Below the pieces are notes generated by a model. The model worked only from the letters and a program-made list of their open reading frames with translations. It was not told where the DNA came from and made no database searches. The position numbers were made by a program, and so were the translations under genes. Positions 45,202 through 57,639 of a stretch of DNA of 60,607 nt are shown one piece after another. This stretch comes from an uncultured Candidatus Saccharibacteria bacterium. GTDB taxonomy: Bacteria; Patescibacteriota; Saccharimonadia; Saccharimonadales; Saccharimonadaceae. Positions within the stretch are counted from its first letter, which is position 1. Every line of letters begins with the position of its first letter. The DNA lies in contig CAOJGQ010000004.1 of the NCBI GenBank assembly GCA_948435375.1, positions 1 through 60,607 of the forward strand. The letters are read 5' to 3'.

Positions 45202-46812
45202 CTACACTCCATGCAAGGGCTGGATATCCGCTCCGAGGCGGTTCAGGCGCGCGGCGAAGTCTTGATAGCCGCGGTTAATCGAATAAATATTGCGCAGCAC
45301 AGAAGTCCCCGGCGCCGCCAGCATGGCTATCAAGACTACGACCGCCGGTCGGAGAGCTGGTGGTGCCACCAGCTCCGCCGCGCGCCAGTTAGTCGGCCCT
45401 TCGACATAGATGCGGTGAGCATCCAGCAGCTCCACCCGCGCATTGAGCTGCTCGAGATAGGTCGTATAGACCGCCCGGTTTTCAAACACCCAGTCATGAA
45501 TCAGCGTCCGCCCCTTTGCGCTCGCCGCGATCACCGAGAAGAACGGCAGGTTGTCGATATTCAGGCCAGGGAAGGGCATCGGCGCAATTTTATCAGTTGG
45601 CGCCGTGAGCTCCGCCTTATGGATGCGTAGATCCGCCAGCCTGGTTCGCCCATTCGCGCTGTAATATTCCGGCGAGCGCTCAATCCTCGCCCCCATACTC
45701 TTCAAGATTTCCAGCTCAATCTCTAGGAACTCAATTGGCGCTCGCCGGATCGTAATCTGCGATTTTGTCACCAGCGCCGCTGCGATAAATGACATTGCCT
45801 CAATCGGATCCTCAGCCGGAGAATATTCCACCTCGGCATTAATCTCGCTCTGCCCCCGCACCCGGAGCGTCGTCGTCCCAATCCCCCGAATTTTCACCCC
45901 CAATTTCTCCAAGAAGAAACACACATCCTGCACCATATAATTCGACGACGCGCCCACGATCGTCGTTTCGCCCGGATAAAGTGCCGCCGCCATCAAAACA
46001 TTCTCCGTCACCGTGTCCCCCCGTTCGATCAAAACAATCCGTTTCGGCGGGTACGGCGTCCCCACCTGTTCCACTCGCTGCGGCAACTCCCGGTTGCCCA
46101 ACTCCTTCTCTGGCGTCTCTTTGAGCACTGTCGCCTCATAAAACCCGCTACAATTCGTCGAATCCACTCTTAACCCGAAAGCTGACAAGGCTCTCAGATG
46201 CGGCTCAATTGTCCGCGTTCCCAGCGTACAACCCCCTGCATACGGCAGCCGAAAATCCCGGAATTTATGCAGCAGTGGCCCCATCAGCATCAAAATCGAC
46301 CGCGTTTTGCGTGCCGCCTCCACGTCGATTTCGTCAATGTTTAATTCATCTGGTGATATAATCTCCAAATCACGATATTCATTAATCCAGCGACATTTCA
46401 CTCCGATCGACTCCAAAACCTCGATAATCCGAAACACTTCCTCGATCCGCGCCAGATGCCTGAGTACTGTTTTGCCCGAGTTAAGCAGCGACGCACAGAG
46501 CAGCCCCACCGCCGCATTTTTGCTCGTATTAATTACCGCTTCGCCCGCCAGCTCATGCCCACCATGAATCCGGTAACTTTGCGAAATCGTATCATTAACA
46601 GAGAGAATTTGCCCGCCCAGCGCTTGCGAAAGCTTTGCCACCTGCTCCAGGGTGAGGTTTTGTTGTCCCTTCTCAACTCGGTGAATTGCCGATTGGCTTG
46701 TCTCGGTCGCCTCAGCCAGATCTGACTGTGTCCAGCCCTTCTCGCGCCGCAGTTTCGCAATTACCGCTCCGATTGTCTCTTGATAACTCGGGTTCAAATT
46801 CTGCTCGTTCAT
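45202..46812 (-). CDS. murA: MurA enolpyruvyl transferase fused to an N-terminal XRE-type HTH domain
   Basis: MurA transfers enolpyruvate from PEP to UDP-GlcNAc, the first committed step of peptidoglycan synthesis. The 536-aa protein has two parts. Residues about 14-70 are a canonical XRE/Cro helix-turn-helix (IGAVIAKLRREKGWTQSDLA, then TSQSAIHRVEKGQQNLTLEQ). Residues about 80-536 are the MurA barrel with NTSKNAAVGLL (substrate-binding Lys-Asn), FRLPYAGGCTLGTRTIEPHL (the loop with the catalytic Cys) and PGLNIDNLPFF. Typical MurA is about 420 aa and lacks an HTH. TAGAAT (46819-46824) ends six bases before the ATG, so it is probably leaderless. Inverted sites lie over its promoter, which suggests that the enzyme represses its own gene. 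It follows tilS and galU on the same strand. Confidence 0.9.
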   Translation of the reverse strand: MNEQNLNPSYQETIGAVIAKLRREKGWTQSDLAEATETSQSAIHRVEKGQQNLTLEQVAKLSQALGGQILSVNDTISQSYRIHGGHELAGEAVINTSKNAAVGLLCASLLNSGKTVLRHLARIEEVFRIIEVLESIGVKCRWINEYRDLEIISPDELNIDEIDVEAARKTRSILMLMGPLLHKFRDFRLPYAGGCTLGTRTIEPHLRALSAFGLRVDSTNCSGFYEATVLKETPEKELGNRELPQRVEQVGTPYPPKRIVLIERGDTVTENVLMAAALYPGETTIVGASSNYMVQDVCFFLEKLGVKIRGIGTTTLRVRGQSEINAEVEYSPAEDPIEAMSFIAAALVTKSQITIRRAPIEFLEIELEILKSMGARIERSPEYYSANGRTRLADLRIHKAELTAPTDKIAPMPFPGLNIDNLPFFSVIAASAKGRTLIHDWVFENRAVYTTYLEQLNARVELLDAHRIYVEGPTNWRAAELVAPPALRPAVVVLIAMLAAPGTSVLRNIYSINRGYQDFAARLNRLGADIQPLHGV

Positions 46813-46818
46813 ACCATA

Positions 46819-46882
46819 ATTCTACCACATTTATATCATGAAGTGAATATTTAATTTTTCACATTATTCATCTCATGATATA
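46819..46882 (-). promoter_or_regulatory. murA promoter with two inverted operator-like sites
   Basis: TATATCATGAAGTGAATA (46832-46849) and the inverted copy at 46865-46882, which read on the other strand is TATATCATGAGATGAATA, match at 16 of 18 positions. Their centres are 33 bp apart, about three helical turns. The nearer site overlaps the expected -35 position of the murA promoter (minus-strand -10 at 46819-46824). Confidence 0.6.
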
Positions 46883-47820: not shown

Positions 47821-48765
47821 TTAGAGTTCGAACTCATCCCGGCCAATTTCTACCAGCTTGTCCCCTGGCAGGTTGAATTTCTTTCCCGGGTTGTAGTGTA
47901 GAATCGCCTGCCGAAAATCCTCAATTTGCGGCCGCGTCGCCCGAATTCCCGCTCGCAACAAACCCTCCCGCAGCAGTTCCTGTGCCACCTCCCTGTCAGC
48001 CCCTTCCTCCAGCTCATAAAACCACTTCCGCTGCCACAGCTCGCCCTCCTTCGGCAGCAAACTATTCACGATTCGGTCAATCTCTTGCCGGAGTTTTTTC
48101 TGTCGCTGCCAAAGCTTCCACATCTCCAGTTTCTTCTCATAAACCCAATTTTCCTCGCGCAGCCGCTCCCGCACCCGATTACGTAAAAAATCCGCCGAAC
48201 TATTACTCTGGTCCTCCCGAAAATGTAAACCACGCTTCGCCGCATATTCAAAAATCGCCGCCTTATCCATCGGCTCATAGCAAATTTCCGCCTCTAGCAG
48301 TGGCCGCCGCACCCCCGCCTGATCTAAAACCGCCAGCCCTCGCCAGCCTGTTCCCCGGAGCAGGTTAATCACTACCGTCTCGACCAAGTCGTCCAGATGA
48401 TGCGCTGTATAGATCGTCGACGGCTCGTTTCTGCTGGCCACTTCGCGCAAAAACTCGTACCTCGCCGCCCGCGCCGCTTCCTCCGAAGTATTCTCTCCGA
48501 GTTTACCTTTTTTTGCAATATTCGTTCCATGATATATTTCTTCCGCAGTTTTTCGCACAAATTCTGCATCTTTATCTGAATTATCACGAGTTCCATGGTC
48601 AAAATGCGCCACAATTATCTCATCAGACGAATAATCCCCCTTATCCAATATATCACAAGACGCATAATCATCTCCGAAATGCGCCTTGCGTGGCGTATTT
48701 TTATACATTAAATCCAGCAAAACCATCGAGTCCACTCCGCCCGAAACCGCCAAAATCTTCTTCAT
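47821..48765 (-). CDS. tilS: tRNA(Ile)-lysidine synthetase
   Basis: TilS modifies C34 of tRNA-Ile2(CAT) to lysidine so that it reads AUA as isoleucine. The 314-aa protein begins with the PP-loop ATPase motif (MKKILAVSGGVDSMVLLDLM) and continues with IIVAHFDHGTRDNSDKDAEF and TIYTAHHLDDLVETVVINLL, typical of TilS. The C-terminal part is shorter than in E. coli. The start at 48765 has TATAAT (48772-48777, minus strand) six bases upstream, so it is probably leaderless; the longer frame from 48819 crosses that box. A tRNA with anticodon CAT is at 25199. Confidence 0.92.
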   Translation of the reverse strand: MKKILAVSGGVDSMVLLDLMYKNTPRKAHFGDDYASCDILDKGDYSSDEIIVAHFDHGTRDNSDKDAEFVRKTAEEIYHGTNIAKKGKLGENTSEEAARAARYEFLREVASRNEPSTIYTAHHLDDLVETVVINLLRGTGWRGLAVLDQAGVRRPLLEAEICYEPMDKAAIFEYAAKRGLHFREDQSNSSADFLRNRVRERLREENWVYEKKLEMWKLWQRQKKLRQEIDRIVNSLLPKEGELWQRKWFYELEEGADREVAQELLREGLLRAGIRATRPQIEDFRQAILHYNPGKKFNLPGDKLVEIGRDEFEL

Positions 48766-55158: not shown

Positions 55159-55962
55159 CTAGCCGTTAACGGCGCGGTTTGCCGCTTGCAAAACATGCTC
55201 AAATAACGCCGTCACGGTCAGCGGCCCCACTCCGCCCACTTTGGGCGTGAGCGCCTTCAGATTCGTTCGCGCCCGCACCGCGTCGTCTACGTCACCCACC
55301 AAAACTCCTCCTTCGCTCGCTGTGCCTGCGTCCACCACAGTCGCCCCAGCCTTTACCATCTCGTCCTTAACTAGATGCGGTACTCCTGTTGCACTTACAA
55401 TCACGTCAAAATCCTTCAACCTCTCCAAATCATCTCCGCGATGAAAAACCGTCACGTTATAGCCCGACGCTCGCCACATTCTCTCTAGTGGCGCCCCCAC
55501 CAGTCGTCCTCGTCCAACAATCGCAATTTCCGCTGACTTGAGTGGAATATCATAGCCATTCAGCAGCCAATCTACCGCCGTCGCCGTTGCTGATTCAAAA
55601 ACCGCTCCCGCCGGGTTCAGCCCGTCGACGTCTTTCTCCGGCGCAATCCGCTGCACTAGTTCGTCAACGTTCGTCTCGCCCTGAATCGGCAGTTGCAAAA
55701 TCACCCCGTGCACACTCGAATCTTGGTTGGCCTCTTCCATCGCCTGCGGCAAATCCTGCCTGAGCCAATCTTCAACTTCAATTCCAATATCCTCGCCGTA
55801 CTGCTTTTTCAGCTCGACATATTTCAGAATCACCGGATTGTCACTATTACGAATAATCACCAGCTTCGGTCGCAGCTTCTCTCGCCCCAAGAAACTCCGC
55901 ACTATCCGCGCCTGATTTTCTTTCATGTATCCCGCAATTTCTGCCCCGCTAAGAATTTTCAT
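55159..55962 (-). CDS. folD: Bifunctional methylenetetrahydrofolate dehydrogenase/cyclohydrolase
   Basis: FolD interconverts 5,10-methylene- and 10-formyl-tetrahydrofolate, supplying one-carbon units. The 267-aa protein has YVELKKQYGEDIGIEVE (the Y-x-x-x-K active-site element), VHGVILQLPIQ, PEKDVDGLNPAGAV and VGRGRLVGAPLERM, then PKVGGVGPLTVTALFEH. VGRGRLVG replaces the usual VGRSxxVG NADP loop. The start at 55962 (MKILSGAEI) is set by GGAGG upstream; it overlaps the end of murB by 14 bases, so the pair is translationally coupled. Confidence 0.92.
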   Translation of the reverse strand: MKILSGAEIAGYMKENQARIVRSFLGREKLRPKLVIIRNSDNPVILKYVELKKQYGEDIGIEVEDWLRQDLPQAMEEANQDSSVHGVILQLPIQGETNVDELVQRIAPEKDVDGLNPAGAVFESATATAVDWLLNGYDIPLKSAEIAIVGRGRLVGAPLERMWRASGYNVTVFHRGDDLERLKDFDVIVSATGVPHLVKDEMVKAGATVVDAGTASEGGVLVGDVDDAVRARTNLKALTPKVGGVGPLTVTALFEHVLQAANRAVNG

Positions 55963-56989
55963 TTTCCTCCTTTCCAATCTCCACCGGTTCTTGCTCGAGC
56001 ACAAAGCCGAATTTTGCTTTCACCGCGTCGACAATCGTCTTGCGCGCCTGCGCGAGCTCCGCATAAGTTTTCGCCTTTTCATTAATCAAAACCAGCGCCG
56101 CTTTCTCACTCACCCGGAAGCCAAACAGCTCTTTACCTTTCAGGCCACAAGCCTCAATTAGCCAGCCTGAATTGATTTTTCCCCGACCTTCAGCATCGCG
56201 CCAAACCGGAATACCTTTCGCTTCGGCCGCGTCTGCCCCCGCTGGGTCGACCATCACATTTTTGAAAAAGCTCCCAGCGCTGGCCTTTTCCTTCGGATCG
56301 GGCAATTTCTCGCTCCGAATCTCCGAAACCATTTTCCGTACATTCATGGGCGAAAAATCCGTCACGCCGTGCTCATCAATATAACGTTGCAGGGAATTAT
56401 AAAATGGCGGCTCGAGCTGTGTTTTTTTTAGTCGCAGCGTCACTGCATAAATCCAAAACCTCCCCGCATCCTCACCAGTATTGAATCGCGTGGTGCGATA
56501 GCCCAACCGCATTTCTTCCTTCGCCAGTTTGATAAACTCCTCTTCTCTCGTATCATAGGCCTCCGCCGAGACAATCACCGCCGCCACGTCCTGCCCATAA
56601 GCGCCAATATTTTGCACTGGTGCTGCACCCACCGTCCCCGGAATCATGCTCATTGCTTCAATCCCCGACGCACCGCGCTCACAGGCAAATTCCACCAAAT
56701 CATCCCAAACTTCACCCCCCATACTACGCAGTTCCAAACTCTCCTCATCCTCGCGCAAAATCTCAATCCCCCGAATTTCGTTCAAAACTACCACCCCATT
56801 AAAGCCGCTGTCTCGCCCAATCGTATTCGCCCCACCCCCCATCATCCAAGTCGCGAGCCCTCGCTCCTGCGCAAACTTCAGCGCCTCCGGAATTTCCTCC
56901 GGCGTCCGCACACTGACCACATATCTCGCCGCCCCACCCAGCCGCATAGTCGTCAGTTCCGCAAGTGGTACATTTTCCCGTATTTCCAT
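55949..56989 (-). CDS. murB: UDP-N-acetylenolpyruvoylglucosamine reductase
   Basis: MurB is the FAD- and NADPH-dependent enzyme that reduces MurA's product to UDP-MurNAc. The 346-aa protein has TTMRLGGAARYVVSV and MMGGGANTIGRDSGFNGVVV (FAD-binding loops), GIEAMSMIPGTVGAAPVQNI and GAYGQDVAAVI, the KASAGSFFKNVMVDP motif with the catalytic Ser, and GWLIEACGLKG. The start at 56989 lies seven bases from TATAAT (56997-57002, minus strand), so it is probably leaderless. folD follows with an overlap. Confidence 0.95.
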   Translation of the reverse strand: MEIRENVPLAELTTMRLGGAARYVVSVRTPEEIPEALKFAQERGLATWMMGGGANTIGRDSGFNGVVVLNEIRGIEILREDEESLELRSMGGEVWDDLVEFACERGASGIEAMSMIPGTVGAAPVQNIGAYGQDVAAVIVSAEAYDTREEEFIKLAKEEMRLGYRTTRFNTGEDAGRFWIYAVTLRLKKTQLEPPFYNSLQRYIDEHGVTDFSPMNVRKMVSEIRSEKLPDPKEKASAGSFFKNVMVDPAGADAAEAKGIPVWRDAEGRGKINSGWLIEACGLKGKELFGFRVSEKAALVLINEKAKTYAELAQARKTIVDAVKAKFGFVLEQEPVEIGKEENENS

Positions 56990-57011
56990 AGTATATATTA
57001 TACCACTATCA

Positions 57012-57639
57012 TCAACCCACCCCAAGCCGACCTTGGCCACCGTTCCTCTCGCGCAAAGTCCTCACCAAGCTCCCATTAAACCAGTTGTTAGTATCCTGTC
57101 CAGCGCTCCATAAAATACCCATTTGCAGATTCGCCACACCTGATCGTACCCAATAGAAAGGCGCTTCACTAACGTTTTTTATTTTGATTTTTAATAATCG
57201 ATGTATAGCCTGGCACTCCTGGCAAACCATATTTATCCGAAGTTGGGTAACCATAAGCCAATAATAGCCGATAATAGCTGTCATCTAAGTCAAATGGTGC
57301 TTTTGTTGTATAATTTGCCCCCGAACGCGGAAGCTGCCAACCTTTTGGACAAATGCTATCTGGCGCATTTTTTAGTAGTGCATTAAGCTCTTGAGTATTG
57401 GTTACATTATCCGCATTGCCACTCGATAATTCTTCGCCACCGGAACCGGCCGCTGCCGCGTTATAAGAATAATAGTTTCCGATCAAATAGCGCGCATCAT
57501 ACGTTTTGGTCGCCTCTAGGCATGAACAAAAAGCGACACCGCAAGGGTGTCTGAATTCCATTCGTAACCTACGTATGATTATGCAACCATTAACGCTAGT
57601 ACTTATGCGGTGCCGCTTAGTAAGCATTAAATACTGCAC
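57012..57639 (-). pseudogene. Broken FISUMP-domain surface protein fragment
   Basis: Two adjacent minus-strand frames together resemble a Fib_succ_major (FISUMP) surface-protein domain. The first contains YDARYLIGNYYSYNAAAAGS and APDSICPKGWQLPRSGANY, the CPKGWxLP hallmark. The second, shifted by one frame, contains EAPFYWVRSGVANLQMGILW. No start codon, signal peptide or ribosome site is present, and the N-terminal region (SVNGCIIIRRLRMEF) looks scrambled. I read it as a decayed copy of a secreted protein gene. It lies just upstream of murB on the same strand. Confidence 0.6.

Follow-up and report, generated by a model that had tools for sequence, protein, structure and literature searches.

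The biotin protein ligase BirA acts on the biotin genes and is gated by the intermediate of its own reaction. As a group II ligase it combines a helix–turn–helix (HTH) domain with an enzyme and functions as a feedback repressor (PMC4016012). BzdR and BoxR carry an XRE-type HTH in front of a shikimate-kinase-like domain, which in BzdR is enzymatically inactive and senses benzoyl-CoA (PMC3602430); BzdR is the closest precedent found for an XRE-type HTH joined to an enzyme fold. Control of MurA is known mainly at the protein level, through ReoM and PrkA, CwlM and PASTA kinases (PMC7286690, PMC4946905, PMC12077105). A search of the open-licence literature returned no published HTH-bearing MurA, which is not proof of novelty.

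Saccharibacteria are minute epibionts of other bacteria. In a 60,607-nt stretch of DNA from an uncultured Candidatus Saccharibacteria bacterium (hereafter the window), a 536-residue open reading frame on the minus strand (45,202–46,812) combines Pfam domains HTH_3 and EPSP_synthase and is recognised as MurA by NCBIfam. Sequence comparison makes it highly likely that this protein, HTH-MurA, is an active MurA that also serves as a sequence-specific autorepressor. Members of the window's genus have extra sites at the murA promoter and inside murA, and most species among them further sites in murE. Like BirA, HTH-MurA is catalytically complete, as judged from its sequence, and bears an N-terminal HTH; BirA represses transcription within its own pathway, and we propose the same role here. 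BirA differs in that its enzyme and HTH class are unrelated and in that the main site of HTH-MurA is its own promoter. With BzdR and BoxR the protein shares an N-terminal XRE-type HTH, a linker and an enzyme fold. BzdR, however, has lost its activity, whereas HTH-MurA keeps its catalytic residues and is the sole MurA of its genome, and its C-terminal domain is a MurA rather than the inactive shikimate-kinase-like domain of the BzdR/BoxR group. HTH-MurA resembles BirA in its working principle and derives its domains from neither system. At the level of sequence it would qualify as a bifunctional enzyme-repressor, with enzyme and DNA-binding domain in one protein and a specific operator at its own gene and, in the genus, constrained sites in the pathway gene murE. 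In these organisms with very small genomes, the first committed enzyme of wall synthesis apparently doubles as its own transcription factor. The proposal brings a defined operator with directly testable targets (murA and murE) and opens transcriptional self-regulation of wall synthesis in CPR bacteria to testing.

Architecture and enzyme domain of HTH-MurA

The reading frame opens with ATG and runs without an internal stop. Pfam places HTH_3 at residues 18–66 (E 2.2e-12; 47.3 bits against a cut-off of 23) and EPSP_synthase (PF00275; E 3.1e-39) with its best stretch at residues 267–522. The NCBIfam MurA model PRK09369 matches residues 78–531 with 305.8 bits, above its cut-off of 297, and the stricter TIGR01072 reaches 277.9 bits, under its cut-off of 392.7. 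The initial annotation had described a MurA fused in one frame to an HTH, and both the uninterrupted frame and the two significant domain matches bear this out. Its proviso that the fusion might be an assembly artefact falls away, as does a frame error, because full-length relatives, HTH included, recur in many independent genomes.

An AlphaFold2 model built with 62 rows has a mean pLDDT of 90.5. The XRE/Cro-C1-type HTH domain (residues 10–65; 46,618–46,785, minus strand) is well formed, with helices at residues 10–25, 29–35, 40–47 and 55–65 and pLDDT mostly above 90. The third of these is the recognition helix (QSAIHRVE; 46,672–46,695, minus), which holds the invariant residues Q40, R45 and E47. 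A short flexible linker (residues 71–76; 46,585–46,602, minus) is disordered in the model, with pLDDT under 50, and leads into the MurA catalytic domain (residues 77–536; 45,205–46,584, minus), supported by alignment to E. coli MurA and by PDB matches. At the junction, codons 70–79 (CTC TCT ATA ... CAG AGT; codons 70–80 occupy 46,573–46,605) are under strong synonymous constraint in the genus, and these codons do not match the operator motif described below.

The top PDB matches of the MurA domain model are all MurA, with TM-scores of about 0.9 by target length (0.92 for E. coli MurA, 1uae) at 24–30% identity of the solved structures to HTH-MurA. Alongside this common fold, the main catalytic residues of the canonical enzyme are kept: E. 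coli K22, N23, R91, C115 and R120 correspond to K98, N99, R171, C195 and R200, and D231, D305, R331, R371 and R397 to D335, D420, R446, R488 and R514. The Cys loop and Lys–Asn motif reported as intact at first reading are accounted for by C195, K98 and N99. Besides the added HTH, HTH-MurA differs from canonical MurA in the glutamates that replace K48 and K160 (residues 124 and 263) and in RTIEPH (residues 200–205), beside the uridine pocket, where E. coli has RPVDLH. These substitutions characterise the divergent MurA clade as a whole, and substrate binding by the clade may differ in detail. A profile search of the source genome (909 kb, 91% complete) found HTH-MurA as its one PF00275 protein, and MurB is encoded in the same window (55,949–57,040). 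HTH-MurA is best read as a working MurA with its main catalytic residues intact. A degenerate enzyme turned sensor, after the fashion of BzdR, is ruled out on two counts, the preserved residues and the protein's standing as sole MurA of the genome.

MurA closes upon UDP-GlcNAc binding, and with a complete active site joined to an HTH this open–closed movement on UDP-GlcNAc and PEP could switch the DNA-binding domain, such that precursor supply would set transcription as in BirA. We regard such gating as possible but doubtful: the disordered linker offers no visible signal path in the model, and autorepression that depends on protein concentration works without it. Gating would in any case refine the autorepressor explanation, not replace it. 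Tentatively, the idea may be extended to a substrate-responsive switch in which the UDP-GlcNAc/PEP state sets operator binding at the murA promoter, at phased site pairs within murE in part of the genus and perhaps at murD, as a unit born in CPR bacteria and passed to Actinobacteria. If this were true, pathway flux would feed directly into transcription.

The murA operator and its proposed recognition

Comparison of upstream regions revealed a palindrome, TATATCA-N4-TGATATA, near the murA start codon. It scores at least 12 of 14 at 34 of the 42 loci examined in the order, against 0.8% of dinucleotide shuffles, and most of these palindromes end 8–15 bp upstream of the start. The initial annotation had suggested comparing operator conservation with presence of the fusion. 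Scored in the same way throughout, HTH-bearing loci reach at least 12/14 in 42 of 52 cases and fall lower in about a fifth, against 0 of 45 loci with HTH-less or canonical MurA, an association partly confounded by lineage since HTH and operator share ancestry. Within the clade, loss of the HTH is accompanied by absence of the operator. The palindrome also occurs in other CPR classes that carry HTH-MurA, and in two GC-rich Actinobacteria the sequence ATCTCA-N4-TGAGAT lies upstream of the HTH-MurA gene. Outside the window's genus, positive genomes of the family carry about one exact palindrome each, control matches are all but absent, and 20 of 30 sampled exact palindromes are directly upstream of murA. 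The window's genus uses the variant TATTCA-N5-TGATATA, which averages 12.2 of 13 over 129 loci (shuffles, 8.4). Exact copies of the variant number 108 in 40 genus genomes, where the reversed control gives 4.

The window contains six operator-like matches, compared with a shuffle mean of 1.3. Operator O1 (TATTCACTTCATGATATA; 46,832–46,849, minus strand) is an exact match and overlies both the −35 box and the spacer of the likely murA promoter TTCACT-17-TAGAAT (46,819–46,847, minus), which was located by consensus scan only. A second exact match, O2 (TATTCATCTCATGATATA; 46,865–46,882, plus), is offset from O1 by 33 bp in the opposite orientation. Within murA itself is O3 (AATTCATCTGGTGATATA; 46,343–46,360, plus), with one mismatch.

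Across 59 HTH-bearing sequences, R22, Q29, Q40, R45, E47, G49, Q51 and N52 are invariant (59/59), and T28, A33, S41 and A42 each deviate in a single sequence. The possibility raised at the outset that the HTH might lack DNA-contact residues across homologues is answered by this conservation. At residue 44 most of the order has N; the window's genus has H (or Y) there, and another CPR lineage A. Covariation of this residue with operator type is suggestive, but we do not take it as proof: the change maps to few branches, N5-like sites also occur with some N-type sequences, and the first murE site of the genus is of the N4 type.

We propose that the HTH of MurA itself binds these sites and that binding over the murA promoter leads to repression, as the operator covers the promoter. 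HTH-MurA subunits would pair on the palindrome. As MurA is generally regarded as a monomer, either the HTH or the DNA would have to bring the subunits together. In the window's genus, the second promoter site and the site inside murA probably strengthen binding. For most species there, though not the window's own, HTH-MurA probably acts on murE as well, through a pair of sites 72 nt apart inside that gene. Spacings of 33 and 72–76 nt correspond to about 3 and 7 helical turns, which would align the sites along the same face of the helix and allow them to cooperate. The existence of several HTH-less relatives suggests that the HTH is dispensable for the enzyme and fits a regulatory role. A wall enzyme that binds DNA and adjusts transcription, as the initial annotation had envisaged, is strongly supported by comparison, given the invariant contacts, an operator whose conservation extends over classes and phyla, and the lack of such an operator at HTH-less homologues.

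Small genomes still contain further XRE proteins, and one of these might bind the operator, leaving the HTH of MurA as a bystander or with another job. We judge this improbable: the operator tracks the HTH-MurA gene through several CPR classes and two Actinobacteria, neither HTH-less MurA genes of that clade nor canonical ones have it, and the contact residues of MurA's own HTH do not vary. It is less probable still that the conserved sequence is an unusual core promoter and no operator. Its right half does overlap a −10-like hexamer at 35 of 36 loci, but the left half, TATATCA, falls outside any sigma-70 element and is conserved just as strongly, the predicted −10 of the window is a separate TAGAAT, and the sites within murE and murA are under strong synonymous constraint. 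An HTH that is vestigial or purely structural, without DNA binding, is similarly hard to credit. Several relatives do work with a degenerate HTH or none (L204, L206, L213, L214 and L220), but the contacts are invariant over a highly diverged set, the fold is well formed in the model, and the operator is conserved where the HTH is intact.

Distribution and descent of the fusion

HTH-MurA matches were found in 187 of the 199 family genomes and, among the matches listed, most span about residues 9–533, HTH included. Full-length proteins of this extent are the rule in the order Saccharimonadales (TM7). When 100 order genomes were searched with PF00275, nearly all yielded a single MurA; three genomes (G256, G614 and G622) encode extra, longer PF00275 proteins that, from their scores, are probably AroA. 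HTH-MurA is the standard and, nearly everywhere in Saccharimonadales, the sole MurA. The genus of the window appears to include Candidatus Nanosyncoccus alces, since the sequence upstream of murA in that organism (L118) is identical to that of a genus member (L006).

Other orders of the same class have an ordinary MurA of 420–460 residues without the HTH. The canonical MurA of two of their members (L175 and L180) has aspartate at the Cys115 position, as do naturally fosfomycin-resistant MurA enzymes. Elsewhere in the phylum, the divergent MurA clade includes proteins with an HTH (for example L201, L211 and L216), with a degenerate one (L206 and L214) and with none (L204, L213 and L220). The initial annotation had called for a search for HTH_3 with EPSP_synthase across CPR genomes; the fusion is common in Saccharimonadales and present in other CPR lineages. 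The suggested link to host dependence stands only in part: many other CPR lineages lack the fusion and at least two Actinobacteria possess it.

A tree built from only the enzyme domain, together with canonical MurA, places the HTH-less CPR enzymes at its base. Most simply, the HTH would have been gained once and then lost several times, a reading that depends on the rooting. Actinobacteria are the phylum of the known Saccharibacteria hosts, and two of them, Nonomuraea gerenzanensis and Streptomyces sp. BHT-5-2, encode a full-length HTH-MurA with about 57% identity to that of the window, HTH included, and a related operator upstream. The two copies group with the window's family (support 99/99), and a tree that keeps the order together to their exclusion is rejected by the AU test (p 4.7e-5); they may lie inside the family or beside it (61/42). 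Transfer from Actinobacteria to Saccharibacteria is disfavoured by this nesting inside the order. With two actinobacterial sequences compared, the tree position leans towards a transfer into Actinobacteria from CPR bacteria. Such a movement, probably of the gene together with its own regulatory site, would be the reverse of what is expected of an epibiont. In the Nonomuraea record there are other MurA-like loci, so its HTH-MurA is probably a paralogue. The actinobacterial HTH-MurA is possibly of the MurA2/SCO5998 type; SCO5998 is presented simply as one member of a pair of MurA enzymes (PMC12161575). A scan of viral contigs with the actinobacterial HTH-MurA protein gave no match.

Intragenic sites and further candidate targets

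Among 110 genus sequences, no murA codons are under stronger synonymous constraint than 152–153, which lie within O3 (p 5e-82 and 2e-61; binomial, with relatedness not corrected for). In murE, identified by NCBIfam, the genus carries TATATCACATATGGTATA, encoding YITYGI, and TATTCANNNNNTGATATA, encoding YS.GDI, exactly 72 nt apart in most of 29 genomes. Among 405 codon columns, those of YITYGI rank 1, 3, 6 and 10 in synonymous constraint and those of YS.GDI rank 2, 4, 8, 13 and 16. One genus murE (L353) has lost the second site and has an exact site in reverse orientation at +76. The pair is absent from the window's own murE and from those sampled from other genera; a genome of another genus (G003) has two N4-type sites in murE at the same 72-nt spacing. 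Many exact matches away from murA are intragenic, and some are plain in-frame codon coincidences; the murE sites stand apart from these. A broad regulon drawn from exact genome matches is mostly rejected outside the genus, as many of the matches are coincidences of this kind.

Several further sites were observed. In the window, tilS contains a cluster of three operator-like sites with 1–2 mismatches (48,519–48,536, 48,616–48,633 and 48,649–48,666). Exact variant sites occur at the same position of murD (nt 129) in two genus genomes (L274:1501 and L291:1501). The source genome has an exact site upstream of a DUF2726 gene (L261:4277), an exact pair offset by 33 bp near a gene for a tRNA-editing domain (L262:4377 and 4410), an exact pair offset by 76 bp within argS (L263:366 and 442), and a one-mismatch pair offset by 73 bp where an rRNA/tRNA methyltransferase gene begins (L264:3871 and 3944).

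In four genus genomes (L269, L281, L289 and L294) the variant operator is located inside a strong-looking promoter that precedes a short hairpin-rich stretch. These stretches have the motif CTGCGAGG in common, and three are near tRNA genes. An Rfam search of the operator-driven short transcript returned no family match; the stretch could be a small RNA under the same control as murA. Two intergenic fragments of the source genome (L262:5043–5438 and L263:2130–2411) have a protein sequence in common (TTGSLRRAGSDGYYWG...) at two places in the genome, and are perhaps decayed copies of a surface-protein segment.
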